From Dermatophagoides farinae (Eukaryota > Arthropoda > Arachnida > Sarcoptiformes > Pyroglyphidae), in assembly GCF_024713945.1 (NCBI RefSeq), contig NC_134681.1, forward strand, positions 5,352,025 through 5,416,024: a stretch of DNA of 64,000 nucleotides. The letters run 5' to 3'. Position 1 is the stretch's first letter. Every line of letters starts with the position of its first letter. Of this stretch, positions 21,205 through 63,133 are shown in pieces. The position numbers were made by a program, and so were the translations under genes. The notes under the pieces are model-generated. The model saw only the letters and a program-made list of their open reading frames with translations, did not search any database and had not been told where the DNA came from.

Positions 21205-21213
21205 CTCCCCTTA
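21205..21213 (-). other. polypurine tract overlapping the stop codon
   Basis: On the minus strand the sequence TAAGGGGAG directly precedes the 3' LTR. Its first three bases are the stop codon of the Gag-Pol frame, so the plus-strand primer site and translation end overlap. Confidence 0.8.
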
Positions 21214-24200
21214 TGTCAACAAAGGATTTGTAATATTCCAGCATTTCAATAATCTCTCATGTTTATCTGGTGTTAACGATTTCGTAAACCAATCTGCCTT
21301 CTGTTTAGATGATTCGATCCATTTGATGTTTAAAAAATTTTCTGATATTAACTGTCGAACCATATGATATTTTATGTCTATGTGCTTCAATCGAGATGGA
21401 ATAGCAAGTTGTGTCAATTGAACAACTGCAGCTTGATTATCAACATGAATTATTGGACATATAAAAGAAATTTGCAATTCATTCATCATATTGATAACAT
21501 ATCGTAAATCTTTTGAACATGAACTACATGCAATGAATTCTGCTTCTGCTGTACTATCGACAATCACTTTCTGAACTTTGACACGCCATAGAATAGGACC
21601 ATTAACTACAATACAATAACCAGTAGTAGTTTTTCGAGTTAATTTGTCTCCAGCCAAATCTGCATCTGAATATGCTTCAAAAACTAGATTAACGTCTCCG
21701 CCCAGAATGATTCCAAAATTTGTTGTACCATGTAAATAACGGAAGATGCGTTTTAACGCTTCAACATGAATATCCAGCGGTTTGATCACAAATCTCGCCA
21801 GAAAGAAAACAGCGTAGCAAATATCAGGTCTTGTTTTCGTAGCCAAGTATAATAACGAGCCAATTGCCTGGCGATATGGATAAACATTGTCTTCTTTTGA
21901 TTCTGCAAACATGTCGTCTGTTGAACATGGTGACCGAGCATTTTTGCAATTTTCCATATTGAATATTTTCAACTTATCCAAAATATATTTCGATTGAGAT
22001 AAGTGAATAATTCGTTTTGATCTATTACGATGATATTCGAAACCAACGTACATATTGCTCTTAACTTCATTTACTTTGAAATATCGATTAAGAAAATTGA
22101 AGATTTTAAACACTTCTTCTTTATCAGTTGAACATATTATACCATCGTCTACGTATAATATTAGCATAGTTCTGTTGTTATTTTTACTATCAAAATATAG
22201 ACATGAATCAAAAGCTGAAGCTTTTAGTCCATATTTCTTGATTATATCATCAAACCGTTTATTCCAAGCTTGAGGACTTTCTTTTAAACCATAAAGACCA
22301 CGTTTTAATTTGCATACACGATCACTATTGTCATTATATCCCAAAGGCTGTTCAATGTACACATCATGACTGATGAAACCATTCAAGAATGCTGTTGAGA
22401 CATCAAATTGAATGAAATCCATATCATATGTAGCAATCAACGAGAAAATAAATCTAATAGTATCAGTATTCACAACTGGTGCATAATTGCTCCAAAGATT
22501 ATCTTCATCCGCCTCAAAACCACGAGCAACTAAACGTGATTTATAACGTCCATCTTCTTTTATTCTATAAAGCCATTTAACCGTGATTACTTTCTTATCA
22601 ATAGGTCTTGGAACAAGCTCCCAAGTGTCGTTATCAATAAGAGCTTTATATTCAGCTTCCATAGATAGTTTCCATTTATCAGCTTCTTCACAATTACTAG
22701 CATCATCAAAGGAGATCGGTACTGTGCCAGCCACAGCAAGTCCAAGAATTTTATGAGAACGTAATGATGCTAATTTTTCATCAATATTAACAACTGTGTC
22801 ACTATTTGATTCAACATCAATTGATTTAAGTCGACACTTTGTAGTTTCATCAAACTTCACTGATGATGATAGCTTAATACAACGACGATCTGGACAATAA
22901 ACACGATATATATTTGACCCTTTATAGCCAACCATAAAAACAGGTTCGGATTTCGTTGAAAATTTGTTACCATGCTTAGAAATCCAACTCTCCCCTTTCG
23001 AGCCAAACACACGAAGATTTGAAACATCAACAGATTTACCAAAATACTCTTCGTATGGCACAATATTCTTCGAGTTTAAAGTACGATTCACCACATAAAC
23101 AACATGATTTAGAGCTTCGTCCCATAAATAATGAGGTAAACCACTATTGTTGAGAATCGCCACTGCACGTTCAGAAATTGTTCGAATGAATCGTTCAGCT
23201 TTGCCATTATGCTGAGGAACACCAACCACACCTAACTCATGTATGATTCCACGATCACGGAAATACGATTGAACATTCTTCGATGTGAATTCAGACCCAT
23301 TGTCTGAGCGAACCACCAGTACATCTTTACCAGTGTCAATTTTGACTTCATTGATAAATAATTTCAATTTATCATAAACTTCACTTCTTTGCTTCATAAA
23401 ACCAATTTTTAAATATGATGACGAATCATCAACAGCTAATAAATAGTATTGATTTCCATGAATAGAAGGCTTCATGTAACCACCAATGTCTACATGCAAT
23501 TTCATTCCAGAAACAATATTTTCATTGACAGAAACAACTGGTTTGTGACTAACATCTGTCATTTTACCAGTATGACACGTTGAACAATAAACAATATTAT
23601 TACGAATATCTTTCGGTAAACCAATAATAGTCTTGAGAGCAACCATCCTTTCCAACACTGATGTAGAACAATGGCACAATCTTTCATGCCATATCGCAAA
23701 ATCATCAGAGGAAGCAGATGCCATGGTTATATTTTTGTGGACAGGACGAACATTTAGTTTATACAAATTTCGAATCTCACTAGTCTGTTCTCCCGTTAGA
23801 ATTGGTTCTCCAAAACGATATACTGTTAGTTTTCCATCTTCTTCAACGACCTTCATTCCGGAATGAATACGAGGATTGGTTAAATTGCCAGATGATATCA
23901 AATTAAACGGTTGATTTGGTATAAACGCTACATCTAATAATTTGATATCTAACCAAACAGAACCATTGAAGAACTGACATAGCAATGTACCAAACTGTAC
24001 ATTCTCTTCAATGCCATGTATTGAATCAATACGAACATTACTTTTACGCACATCAGTCAACAAACTACGATCATTCACTATATGATAAGAAGCACCACTA
24101 TCGCTATAAAAGCTCGAATTATTTGATGGCATTATTCCAGTCCAATTAACCAAAGTGATTGGATTAGCGGCGGCGCCACTTGGATCAACGTTTTGTTTCG

Positions 24201-24924
24201 GACGTCGACAATCTTTCGACATATGTCCAATCAAACCACAATTATAACACTTACCACCAAAACGCTTCTTTTTCGTTTGTTTCTTTGTTTGTTTGGATGA
24301 CGATGCTGACAAACCAACGTTTTCTGTTTCAGCAACCAGTTTACTATCAGTATTTAGATTTCGTTCCAATTCTAGCAAATGCGACTCAAATGCGGTATCA
24401 GACATCAAATCACTGTCATCCTTTCCAGTGTTATAAACAGCGAGAACTTGTTGAGCTGATTCATACTCCTTAGGCAACAGATTGCTAATGATCGCATTCA
24501 TTAGACTTTCTGGCAAACACACATTTTTGTTCCTTAATTCCAGAAAAACACGTCGAATTTGAGAAAATAGATCAATAATTGAATTGTTAAACTTCGTTGT
24601 TTGCAATTCCTTGAACAGTTCGAAAATATTTTTCGCTTTTGGACCACGATACTTGTTTTCAAGAACTTTCATAATATCAATTGGATTGCTGCACGGAATA
24701 ATCTGCATCAAATCTTGTTGACTCAAGGCATCTCCAATAATCGATTTGACCTTATCTATTTCTTTCAAATTTTTCTGACTCAATGAACGTTCATAGATCG
24801 CAACATCTTCAACGTAGTTCTTCAAACCTAGGCTTCCAAGTGCCCATTTTACACGTTCTTGCCAAATAAAGAACGGAATTTCGCCCAACTGCGGTATACG
24901 AACGTTAGCGTTGGCTGAACCCAT
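21211..24924 (-). CDS. copia Gag-Pol polyprotein (1237 aa)
   Basis: Single frame encoding the structural and enzymatic proteins of a Ty1/copia element. The start used is the ATG at 24924, the first ATG inside the 5' LTR; the frame stays open a few codons into the LTR without an ATG. Approximate residue positions: Gag 1-225, CCHC zinc knuckle CYNCGLIGHMSKDC 226-239, aspartic protease DSGAS near 275, integrase HHCC zinc finger 413-451, integrase DDE at 479 (LHVDIGG), 541 (RSDNG) and 577 (KAERF). Reverse transcriptase follows with FDVSTAFLNG at 840-849 and YVDD at 924-927, then RNase H with YSDADLAGD, STAEAEF and DNQAAV. The order integrase before reverse transcriptase identifies the copia superfamily. 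No frameshift or stop separates Gag from Pol, so the Gag:Pol ratio must be set another way (splicing or processing). All key catalytic residues are present. Confidence 0.97.
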   Translation of the reverse strand: MGSANANVRIPQLGEIPFFIWQERVKWALGSLGLKNYVEDVAIYERSLSQKNLKEIDKVKSIIGDALSQQDLMQIIPCSNPIDIMKVLENKYRGPKAKNIFELFKELQTTKFNNSIIDLFSQIRRVFLELRNKNVCLPESLMNAIISNLLPKEYESAQQVLAVYNTGKDDSDLMSDTAFESHLLELERNLNTDSKLVAETENVGLSASSSKQTKKQTKKKRFGGKCYNCGLIGHMSKDCRRPKQNVDPSGAAANPITLVNWTGIMPSNNSSFYSDSGASYHIVNDRSLLTDVRKSNVRIDSIHGIEENVQFGTLLCQFFNGSVWLDIKLLDVAFIPNQPFNLISSGNLTNPRIHSGMKVVEEDGKLTVYRFGEPILTGEQTSEIRNLYKLNVRPVHKNITMASASSDDFAIWHERLCHCSTSVLERMVALKTIIGLPKDIRNNIVYCSTCHTGKMTDVSHKPVVSVNENIVSGMKLHVDIGGYMKPSIHGNQYYLLAVDDSSSYLKIGFMKQRSEVYDKLKLFINEVKIDTGKDVLVVRSDNGSEFTSKNVQSYFRDRGIIHELGVVGVPQHNGKAERFIRTISERAVAILNNSGLPHYLWDEALNHVVYVVNRTLNSKNIVPYEEYFGKSVDVSNLRVFGSKGESWISKHGNKFSTKSEPVFMVGYKGSNIYRVYCPDRRCIKLSSSVKFDETTKCRLKSIDVESNSDTVVNIDEKLASLRSHKILGLAVAGTVPISFDDASNCEEADKWKLSMEAEYKALIDNDTWELVPRPIDKKVITVKWLYRIKEDGRYKSRLVARGFEADEDNLWSNYAPVVNTDTIRFIFSLIATYDMDFIQFDVSTAFLNGFISHDVYIEQPLGYNDNSDRVCKLKRGLYGLKESPQAWNKRFDDIIKKYGLKASAFDSCLYFDSKNNNRTMLILYVDDGIICSTDKEEVFKIFNFLNRYFKVNEVKSNMYVGFEYHRNRSKRIIHLSQSKYILDKLKIFNMENCKNARSPCSTDDMFAESKEDNVYPYRQAIGSLLYLATKTRPDICYAVFFLARFVIKPLDIHVEALKRIFRYLHGTTNFGIILGGDVNLVFEAYSDADLAGDKLTRKTTTGYCIVVNGPILWRVKVQKVIVDSTAEAEFIACSSCSKDLRYVINMMNELQISFICPIIHVDNQAAVVQLTQLAIPSRLKHIDIKYHMVRQLISENFLNIKWIESSKQKADWFTKSLTPDKHERLLKCWNITNPLLT

Positions 24925-24928
24925 AACC
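24915..24928 (-). other. primer-binding site, initiator-tRNA fragment type
   Basis: Directly inside the 5' LTR the minus strand reads GGTTATGGGTTCAG. Drosophila copia uses GGTTATGGGCCCAG here, pairing with the anticodon-stem region of initiator tRNA-Met rather than its 3' end. The two CC to TT changes still allow G-U pairs. The Gag-Pol ATG lies inside this site. Confidence 0.8.
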
Positions 24929-25118
24929 TGTTGAAATATTTGCAACACAGTTGGTTAAGAATAAGAACAAGTGAAAAATATGCACAATTCAAACAAAAAC
25001 AAAAACAGTTATATTTCGGTTATAATATTAGCATATAAATATACTATAAACGGAACTATTGTTCCAATTAATTATAATAAACATTTGTTGACATAAATTA
25101 AATCATTATATTCGAACA
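24929..25118 (-). repeat. 5' LTR of the copia element
   Basis: Partner of 21015-21204. It should carry the element's promoter; the minus strand shows AT-rich sequence including TTATATGC and TATTTATATG stretches, but no certain TATA box can be chosen. Confidence 0.97.
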
Positions 25119-26345
25119 ATCATTAATGATAAAATTGTCGATAGAAAAAAAAATAAATAAAATCCATCCATCTATATATATACACACACGGAAAAAAAGT
25201 GAAAATATTAGGTTTTGAAACGAGAATCTGGTCATCTTTTACTTGAACACACACACACACACACACATACACATGGTTTTTGAATGCCATACTTTTCAAA
25301 TCAATTATTATTATATATACATGGGTGTGTATGTGTGCATGTCTTGGTGATGATGAATTGTAGTGTGGTATTTGTGTGTGTGTGTGTGTGTTCATTGTCC
25401 ATCACCAATTTTTCATCAATAGTTCAATAATGTGAATCAAAAGGGATTTGAAAATAAGAAAAAAAAACTATCAATGGTCTATTGAAGAAGAAAAAAAAAT
25501 ATGAAAAATATATATTGGCTCAATAAACTGACCAAATCATCAACAACAACAACAACAATGATTGACTGTGTGATCAACAATGAACAATTGAATGAATCAG
25601 TAAGAGAGAGAGAGAGAGAGAGCGAAAAAAAAAGAATAGAAAACCCAGACCATTGACCAAAATCAAAAAAAAAAATATATTCTGTCCATAGTGTCAGTTA
25701 ATTTTTTTCCCATTATCTGATATTGCATGTTATTGGCCAAACAAGAAAAAAATCTATAGTCACTCATCGAAACGATTCGGTTGAATAGACAATCTGAATA
25801 GTTGGAAAAAAATGAGAAAAATAAATTGATTCTGTTTATCATTGTCGAGAATTGAAAATTGTTGAAAACAAACACTTCAATGGAGAGGAAAAAAAACTGA
25901 GAATAAGAATAAGAATTTTGAAATCAAAGTTGAAAATTTATTGAGGTCATCTCATTGTTTCTCATTTTTATATATATATATTTTTTTCACTTTTTTTTCC
26001 TGACTTTCCTGATTTCCAAAATATAAATTGTCATCATGTTTAACATGGAAAACAAATACAAAACAATCAATCTTTTGAATATAATTCAATTGGAATTTTT
26101 TGCTGTTGTTGTTGTTGTTGAAAGTTAACACTGACAAAACTAAAAAATAAAAATAAAATAAAATTCTCATGAAAAATATGAAAAGAATCAAATACAGAAC
26201 CAAATCATCAAATTATATTGTTTTTAATTCAATCACAATCAATGTTGGTACAATACGAATGTGTTTCAATGAAATTATCATCAAGAAAATTTGTTGGACC
26301 GGCACATAGTTGATTGTTTATGGTGATGATGATAATGGAAAGTGA

Positions 26346-26699
<354 letters not shown>

Positions 26700-29600
26700 C
26701 GTTTTGTAACTCGATTTCATGGATGGAAAGGATATAATTGTAATGAAACAAAATAAACAACTGAATCAAGAATCATTGAAAATGATGATAATGCGTTTTA
26801 TTTTTTTTTTCTTTGCTTTGTTTCATCACTACAAACATTTTGCCCATCGAATTGCCAATAATGATGATGATGATAATGTCTACAAAAGACCCAATGAAAA
26901 TAAATAATCTCTTGGGATCAAAGAGGTGCATATCATGAAAAGGTGAGCAAAAAAAAAAATAAATAAATAAATAAACGAATTTTTCTCTCCCCACTATGGC
27001 TATAAAGATGAAATTCTAATCAGAATGCATTCAGGTATATATAAATTATTTGAAATTTGTTCATTTTTTGACTTTTTTGATCGACAGATTTCAAAACATT
27101 ATTATTATACAAGCGAATAAAAAACCAGAAAAAAATCGGAAAATTCATTTGAAATAAAACCTGCTAGTTGGCAAATTTTTTTTTCATCATTCCTTTTGAT
27201 GTCAAGTTGAATCAAATGTTAAGAGAAAAAAATTTTAATAAAATGAAATCGCTTAAATGAGAAATGCATTCTAATTTCAGATCCATCTGTGTGTTTCTGT
27301 GGGTGTTAAATGTGCCATCGATCCTTTCATTCAAATATTTTCAATTCATTTTACATTTTATTAGTTTGACACCCGACAACCACAACTATCTTATCAAATA
27401 TTAAAGAAAAAAAATTAGCTTTTTCTGGTGTTTTTTTCCAACAAATTCCACCGATATTTTTTTTCCAATGAAATCAAACATTGAAAAACCAACAACCATA
27501 AAAAACCATAACCAAAACATTTCACGCGTTTTCCAAGAATTTTATTCATTCAAAATGGTTATAAACTAAAAGAGAAAGAAAAAAATCTAAAAATAATTGC
27601 TAAAAGAAAAAAAAAGAAAAAATTTCTTTTTTCTGCTACAATAGTAGTTGGTGGATGATGTTGCATTAACTATAAAGTGTGGAACTGTCTTGATATGAAC
27701 CACAGAACAACATACAAGTCATGTTGTTGAATAATAACATGAGAAAAAAAAATTTTCATATGTAACTTGTATATATAGAATTTAACATTGAACAGAATAA
27801 CCGTTTCTTTTTTTTCTATCTATTCACATAATAAAACAAGCAACGAACACACGATTGTTGTTTTTGCTTTACATCTTTTTCTCTTTTATTTGTTTCTGAA
27901 ACCTTACGGGCATCTGGTTCTTATCTATTTGATTTTTCTTTTTCTTTTTTTTGGTTCCAAACATATATGGTGATAATAATATTTTTATGTACATAACCAG
28001 ATCATACGAATGAAGGAATGATGTAAACTGGCATCTCGTACGCCTAAAGGAATTGTATATATATATATATCAAATCCGATCACTGATCAACTGAGAGTTT
28101 TTGGTTTGCCATATTCTTATGCTAAATACTGTAAGCTAAAAAAAAAATTCTTCTACATTCCATAAGTTAGCGAAAAAAAGACGATTCGGTTAGAGGCAAT
28201 AATTGTTATTCATTCTGTTTATAATTCGATTTTTTGTTTTGTTTTGTTTTGGCAATTACAGCTGACAGAATCAATGAAATTGGGTTATTTTTTTGATATT
28301 TTTTTTTGTTTCAACGCTGATGATGATGAAAATAATAGAGATGACGGCGAATTTTTTTTCAAATTTTTCTTTTTTTTCTATGTTTATTGTCTAAATCATC
28401 AGAATTTCATGTGTTGTTTATGAAGAGAAAAAAAAATCATTATTTAAGAACTCGAAAATTCATATTTTGACAATTTAAGACCATAATGATAACAATGACA
28501 AGTGAAAAAAAGAAAACGTCACCGATGGATAATTCACGGTGAAACTAAGAAAAAAAAATGTCGTTAGATTCTTTACACGCATATTCTATGCCTATATTTT
28601 AGCCAGCTATTTTTTTTTTTTTTTGGCCATCTGCTTGCTTTCAACCGATGGCTTGATCAATTTTAATCAATTTAATGATTGTTTTTCAATTCAATTCAAT
28701 TCAATTCAATTGATTGAAAATTGTGACAATAGTGAAATTGATTTTGAAACAGAACAAAAAAAATAACAAAATGTTTATATCGATTTTCAATTTTATTTAG
28801 TGAATTCTATATTGTTCTGAATTTTTGGTTTTTTTTTCGTAATATCTCAATATGTTTGATATTGATTTTTGTTTCTTTTAACATTCATCAACAAACAACC
28901 AACATTATCATCGTCATCATCATTGTTGAAAACAAAACAAAAAACATGCAGCAACCAAAAAAAAAAAAACATCAATAATTTGACAACCATGAAAAATATT
29001 CAAATTCTGTATTCAGTCATAAAGAAGAAGATGAAATCTCTTGTTGTTGATATAAATATCAGCTGAATATGAGAACATATTGGATTTGTTTGTTTGTTTT
29101 TTTTGGACGTTTGAATCTTTGTCGTCGTTGTTGTTATTATTGCCGGAATTAAATATTCGTATATTTGCTGTTTATTTGTTACATTAACAACAACAACAAC
29201 AACAACAACAATAACAGAAAATAAAATGAAGAATTTTGTGGAGACAAAAAATTTTAAATTAAATGTTCTTAAGAATCCAATTTCGTTTCGTTTTTTTTTT
29301 AGTTTTTGGTTTTATTCCAAAAAAATGCACCAATTTTATCATATGATGAAACTTTGTTTCAACAAAGTTTTTTTTTATATCTTTCTCATATTCTTATATA
29401 TCATCATCGAATGTACAAATGTCGTCATGTGTATATAATAAAATACATTGGAAATGAATTAAGAAATGGAAAATCTTTTTCATCATTGTCTTTTAGAAAG
29501 TAGATAGTTGCCGGGCGAAAAAAAACATATATAACAATGATGAAGAATTAAAAACAGAATAAAATGGTAAAAGACCAACGTTGTAGCAACGATAAAATTT

Positions 29601-31524: not shown

Positions 31525-32284
31525 CGAAAATAAATTGTCATATATATACTATATATTTGGTAACGTAGAAGAAGATCATTTTGAAAGATAAAATATATAT
31601 GGATGGATAAAAATGATTACGATGATGTGATTATAGAGTTTGAATGAATGATATGGCAATATTCCGTGTTTTTTTTTTTTGTGGGGGGAGGAGGGTATGT
31701 GTATCATGAACAACAACAACAACAAAAAACGCAGAGATAATCGAGTCATTGTCTGTATTATAGTTTTATATTCTATTATCCTCTGTATGTATGTGTGTGT
31801 GTTTATTTATTTCCATACAATTTTCTTTTTTGTTGTTCTGGAATCTATACGAAATATTTACATTTATGAATTTTGTGAGTGTGTGAAACTAATGTTTTTT
31901 TTTTTAGATGCATATTAGAAACTGTCATAATGAATGTTCGACCCATCGACCGACCGACGGTAATAGATGTGTGAATAGAACAAATTTTCAAACCACTACT
32001 CAACAATCTTTTCAATATTTCTTATTTTTTATATTTTGAACGCCTTATTTGTCATCGGTTTTGATATTCGAAGATTCAATGTTAGAAAGTGATGATGATG
32101 ATGATGATAATGGTGTGTGTGTGTGTGCCTCTAAAAGAATCTCAGATAGAATGATGATGATGATGATAATAATAATAATAATAATAAAAACACAGGACAA
32201 AGGCCAACATTGACGACAACTTAACATCGTCAATTTAACATAAAAATAAAGTTGAAAAAAAAGAAAACCAGAGATAGAGATAAA

Positions 32285-32485
<201 letters not shown>

Positions 32486-32547
32486 GAAGGAGATGGAAAT
32501 ATAAAAAAAATTCCATGTGTACAATATGAATGAATGTATGTATGCAT

Positions 32548-32576
32548 ATGATGGATCGATTCCATCGATCCATCAT
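32548..32576. repeat. perfect 13-bp inverted repeat (hairpin)
   Basis: ATGATGGATCGAT, a 3-bp spacer TCC, then its exact reverse complement. It lies 67 bp to the right of the (AG)n tract. No gene end is nearby, so a role as terminator is not supported. Confidence 0.9.
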
Positions 32577-38150: not shown

Positions 38151-39261
38151 ATGCTCAAATCAATTATTTTGTTTGCCACCTTTGTGTCAATCACATTGGC
38201 TCAACCTGAACTGGCATCACTTGAAGCTGATGGTTTTCTTACCGATGAATACATCGATTATTTGAATAATATCAAATCCAGTACCTGGAAGGTTTGTTGT
38301 TGAAATTTTTCATAAATTGATTTTTGAATTTGTAATTAATTATTTTTCTTTCTACCTAATACAGGCTGGACGAAATTTCAACAAACATATTAATACCGAT
38401 TATGTACGTGGTTTATTAGGTTCACTTGATCAAACATTGCCATTGGAAACATCGTTGCCCACCAAATATGTTTCAAACATTGATACTAAATCAATTCCAG
38501 AAAATTTCGATTCCCGAACACAATGGCCAAAATGCAAAACAATCAAACAGATCCGTGATCAAGGAACTTGTGGATCATGTTGGGCTTTTGGTGCTGTTGA
38601 AGCTATTTCTGATCGTATCTGTATTGCTACAAATGGTACTACTGATGTTATGATCTCAGCTGAAGAACTATTATCCTGTTGTCGTAATTGTGGTTATGGA
38701 TGCAAAGGTGGTTGGACGTTGCCAGCATGGTCTTATTGGGTTTCAAATGGTTTGGTTTCCGGTGGCTTGTATGGAACAAGTGATACATGTGAACCTTACA
38801 CCATTCAACCATGTGAACATCATACTACGGGTCCATTACCACAATGTTCTCAACTAGGTGAATCCCGTACACCTAGATGTAAGCAACAATGCGTTTCTGG
38901 ATATACTAAATCATTCCAACAAGATAAACATTATGGACAAAAGGCCTATAATGTTATCAGGATGCAATCACAGATCCAACATGAAATTATGACCAATGGC
39001 CCGGTAGAAGCAGGTTATATTGTCTATTCAGATTTTGTAAACTACAAAAGCGGTGTATACCAACGACACAGTAGCCAAACATTAGGTGGTCATGCTATCA
39101 AAATTCTTGGTTGGGGCGTTGAAAATGGTACACCATATTGGTTGTGTGCTAATTCCTGGAATACTCGTTGGGGTGATGAAGGTTTTTTCAAAATTCGTCG
39201 TGGTACTAATGAATGTGGTGTCGAAAGCAATATTGTTGCTGGTATTCCAAGAACCAATTAA
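38151..39261 (+). CDS. CTSB: cathepsin B-like cysteine protease 1 (345 aa)
   Basis: Lysosomal or secreted papain-family (C1A) peptidase. Exons 38151-38291 and 38365-39261 are split by a 73-bp GT-AG phase-0 intron after TWK. A signal peptide ends near residue 17 (ITLA-QPE). The short propeptide has the cathepsin B form ([19 protein letters not shown]), and the mature chain begins near [12 protein letters not shown] (about residue 91). Active-site residues: Gln113 and Cys119 in [12 protein letters not shown], His290 in [11 protein letters not shown], Asn310 in ANSWNTRWG. The occluding loop keeps CEHH (His199, His200), and its partner Asp112 is present, so dipeptidyl carboxypeptidase activity is expected. 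The S2-pocket Glu245 of the human enzyme is Asn336 here (GVESNIVAG), which should reduce acceptance of P2 Arg. Length fits the family (human 339). It is the first of three tandem copies. The ATG at 38151 was chosen because it alone supplies the signal peptide. Confidence 0.96.
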
Positions 39262-41059: not shown

Positions 41060-42161
41060 ATGTTTTTCAAATTTGGCATTATTTTTGCCATTGCTACCGT
41101 TGCATTGGCCCGTCCAGAACCTGAACATGTTGATTTTTTATCCGACGAATACATTGAACATTTGAATAGCTTGAAAACTACATGGAAGGTAATTGCTTAT
41201 TTTTCTTTTATCTCTTTTTTTTCATTTAATTCAATTGGATTTATATACTATATTCTTTAATTATTAATAGGCTGGTCGAAACTTTGACCGCGATACACCA
41301 ATGGAACAAATTCGTGGCTTGATGGGTGCTCGTTTGGAAATTCCAGCTGAAATGGCATCTCGTATTCCCGTTGTTAAACATGATCATATCAGTGATGAAA
41401 ATATTCCAGAAAATTTTGATGCCCGAAAACAATGGCCAAACTGTAAATCAATTCAACAGATCCGTGATCAAGGATCATGTGGTTCATGCTGGGCTTTCGG
41501 TGCCGTTGAAGCTATTTCTGATCGTATCTGTATTGCATCTGGACAAAAAACTCAAGTAGAAATTTCGGCTGAAGATTTATTGACTTGTTGTAAAAGCTGC
41601 GGTTACGGTTGTCGAGGTGGTTATCCACCAATGGCCTGGGATTATTGGGTCCAAAGCGGTCTTGTTAGCGGTGGCTTATATCATGACAAAAATACTTGCC
41701 GACCATATACAATTGAACCATGTGAACATCATGTTGAACATGGTTCTCGGCCTAAATGCACTGGTTTTGTAAATACACCAGCATGTGTTCGCCAATGTCA
41801 ATCTGGTTACAATGGTACATATGAACAAGATCGCCACTATGGTCAATCAGCTTATCATGTACATCATGATGTTCAAGATATTCAAAAAGAAATAATGACC
41901 AACGGTCCAGTTGAAGCTACATTTTTAGTTTATGCTGATTTCCTTTCATACAAAAGTGGTATCTATCAACGACAAACTAATTCGATGGTCAGTGGTCATG
42001 CTATCAAAATTCTTGGTTGGGGTGTTGAAAATGGTACACCATATTGGTTGTGTGCTAATTCCTGGAATACTGATTGGGGTGAAGCTGGTTATTTCCGTGT
42101 ATTACGTGGCCGTAACGAAGTGAGCATCGAATCACAGATCTATGCAGGTTTGGCTAAATAA
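41060..42161 (+). CDS. CTSB: cathepsin B-like cysteine protease 2 (339 aa)
   Basis: Second tandem cathepsin B. Exons 41060-41188 and 41271-42161, with an 82-bp intron at the same TWK/AGRNF codon boundary as gene 1. The signal peptide ends near residue 17 (VALA-RPE). The mature chain starts near [12 protein letters not shown] (residue 88). Active site: Gln110, Cys116 ([12 protein letters not shown]), His286 ([11 protein letters not shown]), Asn306 (ANSWNTDWG). The occluding loop CEHH is intact (His196, His197) with Asp109. The human S2 residue Glu245 is Gln332. Odd feature: the near-universal CGxES of the C-terminus is VSIES here (Val327 replaces Cys, Ser328 replaces Gly), and the chain ends GLAK rather than GIPRT. 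Overall the closest of the three to vertebrate cathepsin B. An 80-nt segment around His286/Asn306 is nearly identical to gene 1. Confidence 0.96.
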
Positions 42162-42867: not shown

Positions 42868-43993
42868 ATGATTAAATACAATTCAATTCAAATCATATTG
42901 ATATTGGCTATTTTAACAGAGACAATTGCAGCCAATGTAACAGATGTTTCGATCAATCAAATTGAAGATTTTTTATCGGATAAATTTATTGATCTTTTGA
43001 ATCAATTGAATTCCACATGGAAAGTATGTTTTTTTTTGTTGTTTTGTTTAATTCAAATAGTTTACAAAAAAAATTCATTTTTTTTCAAAAAAATAGGCTG
43101 GACGTAATTTTGATCCCAAAGTGACAGCAAAGAATCTTAAATGTTTGCAAGGTTCAATTGAAGAAACAATGGAAGAATATCAACCGAAAATACGTAATCG
43201 ACGACAATCTATTATTAATGAATATCTTCCAGATTTTTTTGATGCTCGTCAAAAATGGCCACTATGCCGTACAATATCATTGATACCGAATCAAGGACAA
43301 TATTGTAGTTCATGTTGGGCTGTAGGTGTCGTACAAGCAATTAATGATCGTATATGTATTGGTTCAAATCAAAAAATTAATGTAGAAATTTCAGCTCAAG
43401 ATTTGCTCACATGTTGTAAAGAATGTACAAATAATGGTGAAGGTTGTCAAGGTGGTTTTCCAAGCCGTGGTTGGAGATATTGGGTTACAAATGGTTTAGT
43501 TACCGGTGGTCAACATGGTGATACTAGTACATGTCAACCAATGACTATTCCACCAATGAATTTGGCCACATTCATACCGTATCTTCAAGAGCCATATATA
43601 ATTCCAACACCTGTTTGTCAACAACAATGTGTGAATGGAAAAAATTATTTTAAAGATAAATATTATGGTCTTCATTATTATAGAGTATCAAGCGATGAAC
43701 AATCAATACGACGAGAAATATTTCATCATGGACCTGTTGAAGCACATTATCGTGTTTATGCAGATTTTCATCATTATAAAACTGGTGTTTATCAACATCT
43801 ATTAGGAACAGAATCGGTTGGACATAGTATAAAAATTATTGGTTGGGGTATAGAGAATGGTATACCATATTGGCTATGTGCAAATTCATGGACACCATTA
43901 TGGGGTGGTATGGGTGGATTTTTCAAAATACTACGTGGACAAAATCATTGCGGTATTGAGAGTCAAGTGTATGGTGGTTGGCCAAGATTATGA
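42868..43993 (+). CDS. divergent cathepsin B-like protease 3, no occluding loop (350 aa)
   Basis: Third tandem copy. Exons 42868-43023 and 43097-43993, with a 73-bp intron at the same TWK/AGRNF boundary. The ATG at 42861 is out (stop after four codons); 42868 gives a signal peptide ending near residue 22 (ETIAA-NVT). Catalytic residues remain: Gln118, Cys125 (CSSCWAVG), His295 (VGHSIKIIGWG), Asn315 (ANSWTPLWGG). Compared with the family there is one extra residue before the catalytic Cys (NQGQYCSSC), and Asp22 of the human enzyme is Asn117. The occluding loop is replaced: PCEHH and its closing Cys are gone, and PPMNLATFIPYLQEPY occupies the region. Glu245 is Gln342. An extra residue in LWGGMGGFF alters the last domain. 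It should be an endopeptidase lacking dipeptidyl carboxypeptidase activity. A poly(A) signal follows. The reading frame is intact, so it is not an evident pseudogene. Confidence 0.93.
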
Positions 43994-61745: not shown

Positions 61746-62548
61746 AAAGTGAGAGAGAAAGTCTGTAAAATGATTTATTTTTACCAAAGTCTAAATTGCC
61801 ACAGACACCGTTGAAAAAAAAAGAATATTAGAACATTGAAAACAAGCAAACACACACACACACACATACCAATAGAATGAGAATGAATAAAAACAAAACA
61901 GTGAAGAAATGAGATATATTCTGTAGTACAAGAAGCTTGAACAACAACAACGACAAATAACTAAGCATTATGTAGACTCGTAAACGAGAGAGAAAAAAAA
62001 ACGTAAAAACACTTTGCTGTCGAACAAGATTTGGCGACCTAAATGAAAAAAAAACGACAACTAATACTATCAGACACACACACACACACACACACACAAT
62101 GGATGATAATGATGACTACGTTTTTTTTTGTGTGATAGTAAGGGGAGGGGAAAAGCAGAGACACTATATCTGTAGAAATATGTGAATGTTCCAGGTTTTT
62201 TATTTTCATACTCACAATTATCCAATTTTTTGTTTTGTCTTGGTTCATTCATTCGGTTTTGGAATTCCATTTTTTTTTTGAATGAATGAATGAATGAAAA
62301 CGAAATAATGAATTTGAAAATGAAACCAACAAAAAAAAAACTTGTAAAGCCGAAAAATTTTTTGTTTCATAATTCTTAACGAAAAAAAGTGGATCATTTA
62401 AAAAAACAAATTTGAATTTGAATTCTTAAGAATGAGCAAATAAAAATTATTTCTTATACAAATCAATAATCATGCTGAATTTCATTGCGATTATCGTGAA
62501 ACAGAAAACATTAGACAAACATTTTTGTTTCATTTAGTTGTGTACATG

Positions 62549-62789
<241 letters not shown>

Positions 62790-63133
62790 CTTGCTCATAT
62801 TTGATTCCCCAAAGAATAATGTCATTTTTGGATGTTATAGAATTTCTTTTAGTCACTCTCTCATTATCTGTCTTTAAAAGAGATACGCTTTGTTTCTATT
62901 TTTTTTGTTTGCATGTCATGTAATTTAACTTACATAATACGAGAAAAAATATCTGAACAATAATAATAGTACACACACACACACACTTACATTGACAATG
63001 AGATGAAACAAACAACTAAACGAAAATTCCATTCTTTTATCGTGTGTGTGTGTTACACAAACATACATATGGATATATCTAAGGATAATAATCAGACAAA
63101 ATAAAAAAAACAACAATGTTTGGAACAAATTAA

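Follow-up and report, generated by a model that had tools for sequence, protein, structure and literature searches.

Loss of occluding-loop function is already known among cathepsin B-like proteins of beetles and flukes, and published accounts of these proteins, cited throughout for the parts of each source consulted, provide the closest comparisons for the gene described here. Two ion pairs of the loop, Asp22-His110 and Arg116-Asp224, are named in PMC2882330 and PMC7054455. Cathepsin B-like peptidases that have no histidine pair in the loop, and in which the loop is shortened, are reported from tenebrionid beetles (PMC4336737). The peptidases of Tenebrio molitor and Tribolium castaneum resemble our subject, the third of three tandem cathepsin B genes of the mite Dermatophagoides farinae (hereafter copy 3), in being arthropod cathepsin B paralogues that are encoded by clustered genes and lack the loop histidines. 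They differ from it in having a shorter loop, of about 15 residues as compared with 20 in copy 3, which thus falls outside the short-loop group of that study. The beetle enzymes are gut peptidases with a predicted loss of exopeptidase activity, and their position 245 (205 in papain) is mostly non-acidic (PMC4336737). The word "insertion" is absent from the main text of PMC4336737, so that an insertion between the oxyanion-hole Gln and the catalytic Cys, a feature of copy 3, is not treated by that paper under this term.

The paralogue TrCB1.6 of the fluke Trichobilharzia regenti carries changes of a loop histidine, of Asp224 and of Glu245; its reactivated form shows endopeptidase but no exopeptidase activity, and a possible role in cystatin sequestration is considered (PMC7054455). 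TrCB1.6 lacks the catalytic Cys, whereas copy 3 retains it, has no loop motif at all and has an extra residue ahead of the Cys. TbCatB, for which the logic of the loop ion pairs is discussed in PMC2882330, has Tyr at position 116, as does copy 3; unlike copy 3, it possesses the His-Asp pair and both loop histidines, in a loop three residues longer than the mammalian one. Human cathepsin B and two of the mite paralogues (copies 2 and 4) share with copy 3 the fold family, the catalytic residues and five disulfides, but differ from it in having the CEHH motif, Asp22, Arg116 and Asp224.

Peptidase family C1 of astigmatic mites provides a further comparison. The SMIPP-Cs of Sarcoptes scabiei (PMC5956821) are, like copy 3, C1 paralogues with altered active sites; however, they are relatives of the group 1 allergens in which Cys and His are mutated, whereas copy 3 is a cathepsin B in which both are retained. 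In two of the scabies SMIPP-Cs the catalytic Cys is replaced by Ser and the His by Gln, and the group is described in that source as unreported in house dust mites. We observed the same two replacements in a C1 gene of D. farinae (L028/L038; C3:1764619-1765373, minus strand), which reads CGSSW at the catalytic Cys and NQYVQIIGWG where the His is expected. According to PMC10722327, D. farinae has 25 C1 genes, 22 of which are called active by their Cys-His-Asn triad and 3 are counted as non-active; the words "cathepsin B" were not found in the main text of that paper. Titles and opening parts of abstracts in the open-licence literature yielded no mite cathepsin B without the loop motif, and the consulted parts of a spider-mite survey (PMC3407033) make no mention of a loop-less cathepsin B. 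What is new in copy 3 is therefore not the loss of loop function as such but a loop disabled in place rather than shortened, together with an unusual Gln-Cys spacing.

The D. farinae genome searched here comprises 62,435,336 bases in 22 contigs, and the window, i.e., the whole stretch of DNA that was analysed, is the final 64 kb of contig C5. One C1 exon of this genome (L033) agrees with a solved Der f 1 sequence at 69 of 69 residues and is distinct from Der p 1, which identifies the species. The chromosome-level assembly of this species (62.43 Mb) is described as Illumina-corrected, with a quality value of 36 (PMC11074847). The three cathepsin B genes of the window, each with two exons, are split at one and the same frame-0 site after Trp-Lys (Table 1). 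Copy 3 encodes 350 residues in an intact frame that is open to its stop codon, and its match to Propeptide_C1 (residues 36–74) crosses the exon junction. A fourth cathepsin B gene (copy 4, locus L004; C5:2286179-2287060) lies about 3.1 Mb away. Elsewhere in the window, a 1247-residue uninterrupted frame on the minus strand (21211-24954) contains gag, zinc-knuckle, integrase and reverse transcriptase-like stretches and, read by eye, resembles a Copia-type retrotransposon; long dinucleotide arrays at 26229-26772, 32045-32572 and 62444-62923 appear as Ser-Leu repeat frames.

Table 1. Features of the cathepsin B cluster, in positions of the 64-kb window; residue numbers in the first column are those of copy 3.
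Feature	Position	Strand	Remarks
Copy 1	38151..39261	+	CEHH and Asp22 present; Arg116-Asp224 pair lost (Leu, Arg)
Copy 2	41060..42161	+	Both loop ion pairs and CEHH present; Cys240 replaced by Val
Copy 3, exon 1	42868..43023	+	Hydrophobic N-terminus (signal peptide, by eye) and start of propeptide
Copy 3, intron	43024..43096	+	Frame 0 after Trp-Lys, GT..AG; position common to copies 1 and 2; absent in copy 4, where the frame is continuous
Copy 3, exon 2	43097..43993	+	Remaining propeptide and mature peptidase domain; Peptidase_C1 E 5.4e-54
RNRR, residues 85-88	43193..43204	+	Furin-type RX[RK]R; begins 11 residues ahead of the mature start; missed by the first-pass annotation
Asn117-Gln118	43289..43294	+	Position 22 (Asp in the five other cathepsin Bs) and oxyanion-hole Gln
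Tyr121	43301..43303	+	Extra residue between Gln118 and Cys125; Q-x6-C, not Q-x5-C
Catalytic Cys125	43313..43315	+	
Rewritten occluding-loop segment MNLATFIPYLQEPYIIPTPV	43556..43615	+	Residues 206-225 (human 108-127); human length; no Cys, His or Arg
Catalytic His295	43823..43825	+	
Catalytic Asn315	43883..43885	+	
Leu320	43898..43900	+	Human position 224; Asp (partner of Arg116) in human, rat, copies 2 and 4

Family membership of copy 3 is evident from several comparisons. The Peptidase_C1 profile (PF00112) matches it with 184 bits against a cut-off of 20.7, and PF08127 matches the spliced protein with 46.1 bits against a cut-off of 32.7. The best 19 PDB sequences for copy 3 are all named cathepsin B, procathepsin B or cathepsin B-like. 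When the genome was queried with copy 3 in six frames, with matches scored for the best candidates only, at least 27 matches were obtained; besides copy 3 itself, the highest were copy 2 (50% identity), copy 1 (49%) and copy 4 (47%), and the remaining 23 among the matches listed were all at or below 41%. In a multiple alignment, copy 3 shares 46–49% identity with these three paralogues. Relatives or orthologues of copy 3 were not found in viral contigs, genome contigs or phages. Judged by its nearest relatives and its propeptide, copy 3 is thus a cathepsin B by descent. TINAG-type cathepsin B-like proteins have the catalytic Cys replaced and carry additional N-terminal domains; copy 3 is not of this type, since Cys125 is present and Pfam searches at E 0.1 return the propeptide and peptidase domains only. 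The same Cys125 separates it from inactive paralogues of the TrCB1.6 kind.

Disulfides and loop positions of copy 3 are given in the numbering of cathepsin B. Alignment to human and rat cathepsin B shows that the loop segment is still there and has been thoroughly rewritten: in copy 3, C108 is Met, E109 Asn, H110 Leu, H111 Ala, R116 Tyr and C119 Glu, and, away from the loop, D22 is Asn and D224 is Leu. Between positions 107 and 128 there are 20 residues in copy 3, as in human, rat and copy 4, and 21 and 22 in copies 2 and 1, respectively. The first-pass annotation had stated that copy 3 lost its occluding loop; this holds for the chemistry of the loop and not for its length. The accompanying observations stand, namely that PCEHH is absent, whichever of the three forward frames of the loop DNA is read, that both loop histidines and both loop cysteines are gone, and that Asn117 occupies the place of Asp22. 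The loss of D224, the partner of R116, had escaped notice. Hence the loop features that characterize functional cathepsin B are missing, both the His110-His111 pair (Leu, Ala) and the three anchors of the loop (Asn-Leu, Tyr-Leu and Met-Glu).

The changes are concentrated in the loop. Among the 112 invariant columns, defined as letter columns identical in human, rat and copies 1, 2 and 4, copy 3 differs at 27, which include 7/7 within positions 108–119 and 20/105 elsewhere (Fisher P = 2.5e-5). The other five disulfide pairs are present in all six sequences, and Cys108-Cys119 is gone in copy 3. The joint loss of two paired cysteines is in itself a weak point, because random loss of 2 of 12 disulfide cysteines would hit partners 1 time in 11. 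The Asp22-His110 pair is present in human, rat and copies 1, 2 and 4, and both of its ends are gone in copy 3; the Arg116-Asp224 pair is present in human, rat and copies 2 and 4, and both of its ends are gone in copies 1 and 3 (Tyr and Leu in the latter). No half-kept ion pair occurs in any of the six sequences, so that copy 2 may be described as fully locked, copy 1 as half locked and copy 3 as unlocked. These are states rather than a demonstrated order, since the protein tree leaves the place of copy 3 unresolved. The joint loss of interacting partners, previously put forward as a sign of selection in copy 3, is not peculiar to it, as copy 1 also lost both ends of Arg116-Asp224 while retaining CEHH. 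Nor is Asn at position 22 strong evidence: among the 23 C1 cores read in the genome that are not cathepsin B, 8 likewise have Asn directly ahead of the oxyanion Gln.

Copy 3 keeps the complete catalytic set Gln118, Cys125, His295 and Asn315; the residue numbers assigned to these and to Asn117 in the first-pass annotation, with the coordinates and the two-exon structure, proved exact. Two features of the core had been passed over there. The core reads NQGQYCSSCW, as compared with DQGSCGSCW in human cathepsin B, and thus has one added residue; moreover, Ser replaces Gly27, a residue that all five other cathepsin Bs compared (human, rat, copies 1, 2 and 4) have in common. There are further insertions after positions 67 and 227, and His occupies positions 173 and 181. 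Position 245, where an acidic residue goes with Arg at P2, is Gln in copy 3, a change that is not specific to it, being Gln in copy 2 and Asn in copy 1. Copy 2 has its own peculiarity despite a canonical loop, in that the free Cys240 and the adjoining Gly are gone (NEVSIES vs. human DHCGIES).

Of 27 C1 cores examined in the genome, 25 have the spacing Q-x5-C, a count that includes two loci without the catalytic Cys (L013 and L028); the exceptions, both x6, are copy 3 and L032. The latter (L032/L080; C3:7137111-7137847, minus strand) is a Der f 1-like paralogue with the core KKQIKNCGCCW, whose His and Asn are retained in a downstream exon (L080) that is presumably its own. Bacterial and archaeal contigs were scanned with a pattern of QG, two residues, C, any residue, and SCWAF or near, which gives no frequency. 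Of 35 stretches recovered, 17 are in-frame papain-family ORFs; the other 18 matched none of seven D. farinae C1 proteins by phmmer (E 0.01) and were dropped. Each of the 17 was aligned pairwise with three D. farinae C1 proteins; counting a residue as present when at least one alignment showed it, the catalytic Cys is present in all 17, the His in 16 (not in L045) and the Asn in 15 (Asp in L057, ambiguous in L059); one of these ORFs (L076) reads CSSCW, like copy 3. Given these 17 ORFs, we dropped the idea that Q-x6-C proves a dead enzyme: the insertion appears compatible with a kept catalytic set, and it does not exclude copy 3 from family C1. A slightly looser pattern found 5 stretches in viral contigs, none of them papain-like upon inspection of their translations, and no solved structure with Q-x6-C was found among 13 alignments read residue by residue.

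Other departures from the canonical core were observed in the same genome. A cathepsin L-like gene with an open frame (L013; C2:7367554-7368207, plus strand) has the core SMGDCGSGYAF, in which Met stands in place of the oxyanion Gln and Gly in place of the catalytic Cys; it lies directly upstream of L009, the core of which is intact. In three adjoining C1 genes (L024, L025 and L026; C6:4883586-4887553) the Trp after the catalytic Cys is Ala (CGSCAVF), and the gene that follows them, at C6:4889430, has NSCT at that site.

The furin-type motif in the propeptide of copy 3 occurs nowhere in the proteins of copies 1 and 2, nor in copy 4 within 45 residues upstream of the mature domain. Among shuffled propeptides, 0.4% carry such a motif in their last 20 residues; since it is one of several features inspected, it may nevertheless be due to chance. 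Across the genome, RX[RK]R occurs within 45 residues upstream of the mature start in 4 of 24 C1 loci, i.e., copy 3, L007, L020 and L021. The last three have REKR, RSKR and RLKR, respectively, which begin 17–19 residues ahead of the mature domain and may mark a group of mite C1 proteases activated by convertase-type cleavage.

The copies are old, as synonymous sites among the four are saturated (dS 0.78–1.18 by NG86, reaching 33–43 by maximum likelihood), and for this reason pairwise dN/dS ratios were set aside. In a branch model over 290 codons, ω = 1 on the branch of copy 3 was rejected under all three topologies (2ΔlnL 58.8, 56.1 and 58.2). The estimate for this branch (ω 0.042–0.044) is about 1.5–1.7 times that of the rest (0.025–0.028), a weak difference (2ΔlnL 4.2–4.6). 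Several branch lengths reached their upper limit (20.09), and of these results we rely on the rejection of ω = 1 alone. By the time a simulated neutral copy of copy 2 exon 2 has diverged by 0.1 substitutions per site, it has acquired a mean of 5.9 stop codons, and 0.15% of runs are free of them. In the protein tree the branch of copy 3 measures 0.96, as compared with 0.35, 0.32 and 0.48 in its siblings; without the loop columns it measures 0.72, as compared with 0.32, 0.30 and 0.44. Supports for its placement among the four mite copies are 45 and 54 (52 and 65 without the loop columns), and the shared intron unites copies 1–3 against copy 4 only if presence of the intron is derived. Copy 3 departs at 34–37 of the 127–134 columns conserved in the four others, and its siblings at 10–17; its GC content at fourfold sites (0.101) is lower than that of any other among the 16 C1 exons measured, L024 coming next with 0.107. 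These last two features fit weak expression or relaxed constraint. Thus, the branch of copy 3 has been constrained over its history and is faster than those of its siblings. The suggested selection for an endopeptidase does not follow from this: although a neutral branch is rejected (2ΔlnL 56–59), synonymous sites are saturated and the branch is 2–3 times as long as those of the siblings, so that adaptive loss and relaxed constraint are not separable here.

In our opinion, copy 3 would best be read as a cathepsin B paralogue unlocked in place: a presumably expressed, protein-coding gene from an old tandem duplication whose product would be a secreted or lysosomal endopeptidase. We give this reading a probability of about 0.52. 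It is favoured because the 350-codon frame is intact and contains propeptide and peptidase domains, because the losses are concentrated in the loop whereas the remaining five disulfides are all retained, because ω = 1 is rejected and a neutral copy would gather about six stops (P of none 0.0015), and because the tenebrionid peptidases without loop histidines set a precedent (PMC4336737). It is weakened by the rarity of altered Gln-Cys spacing in the genome, by the replacement of a Gly27 that is invariant elsewhere and by the wide departures of copy 3 from conserved columns.

The mechanism that this reading proposes is as follows. The loop segment stays, but the exopeptidase lock, i.e., the disulfide, the two histidines and both ion pairs, has been dismantled. 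The unanchored loop would then be mobile and expose the primed side of the cleft, much as it is exposed in endopeptidases, and the enzyme would cut inside proteins instead of removing C-terminal dipeptides. An open primed cleft with loss of carboxydipeptidase activity appears highly probable, since the loop histidines, ion pairs and loop disulfide are gone and the disulfides of the fold and the catalytic set are retained; the earlier proposal of such a loss is in this sense the natural reading. Copy 3 may also bind cystatins and its own propeptide more tightly, and the higher cystatin affinity proposed before is plausible by the argument given in PMC7054455. Tyr121 and Gly27Ser adjoin the oxyanion hole and S1 and would probably alter specificity or rate; the label "pure endopeptidase" overlooks both and leaves the activity itself in question. 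Release by a furin-type convertase at RNRR, rather than by self-cleavage, is the predicted route of activation. A slow or altered endopeptidase is the reading we prefer, the main rival being a decoy that does not cut.

As a decoy, copy 3 would be a pseudoprotease whose oxyanion hole and S1 are disrupted by Tyr121 and Gly27Ser and whose cleft is laid bare by the unlocked loop; it would bind cystatins or propeptides but not cut, and would thereby shield its active neighbours. We consider this somewhat unlikely. The idea draws on the Gln-Cys spacing, which is unaltered in nearly all C1 cores of the genome, on five cystatin-domain matches in the D. farinae genome, and on published analogues: inactive TrCB1.6, with its changes at His110 and Asp224, binds chicken cystatin (PMC7054455), and across six astigmatic mites 169 of 214 C1 genes are called active, so that 45 are not (PMC10722327). 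Yet a decoy would have no need of the Cys, His, Asn and Gln that copy 3 retains, the same insertion occurs in prokaryotic ORFs that mostly keep Cys, His and Asn, and human cystatins B and C formed complexes with no TrCB1 form, inhibition of the active forms by cystatin having failed as well (PMC7054455). A pseudoprotease by geometry, with the catalytic residues present and silenced by the insertion, and with the open cleft capturing cystatins to the protection of the two tandem neighbours, seems to us unlikely; were it true, annotation based on the triad, as in PMC10722327, would label copy 3 active.

Relaxed constraint on a gene heading for loss, with loop function the first to go since exopeptidase activity is supplied by copies 1, 2 and 4, would agree with the long branch, the somewhat raised ω, the low GC content at fourfold sites and the several insertions near the active site. 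However, 350 codons without a stop, frameshift or splice lesion at saturated dS, and the retention of the five disulfides and the whole catalytic set, argue against it; decay may have set in recently. We regard this explanation as quite improbable. Indels do occur in long-read assemblies, and an error of sequencing, assembly or reading, such as a compensated frameshift, might in principle mask a normal CEHH loop, a possibility that the first-pass annotation had named as its own refutation. CEHH is, however, encoded in no forward frame of the loop DNA, the assembly matches in size the one described as Illumina-corrected, with the quality value given above (PMC11074847), and the changes at D22, D224, G27 and other positions would each require an error of their own. 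Wrong-frame peptides of the loop score within the range of shuffles when compared with real loops (P 0.36 and 0.94; true frame, P 0.27), for which reason a compensated double frameshift was rejected as the sole cause of the rewriting, and plain DNA alignment of the loop gave no consistent pair of single-base gaps. Error is thus extremely unlikely.

The tandem trio represents a natural series of exopeptidase-lock states, with both ion pairs in copy 2, one in copy 1 and none in copy 3. Copy 3 would separate the presence of the loop from the locking of the loop, which the beetle enzymes with their shortened loops do not. Lastly, in D. farinae, which has a major allergen among its cysteine proteases, activity calls based on the Cys-His-Asn triad alone may be unsafe where the spacing of the Gln is altered.
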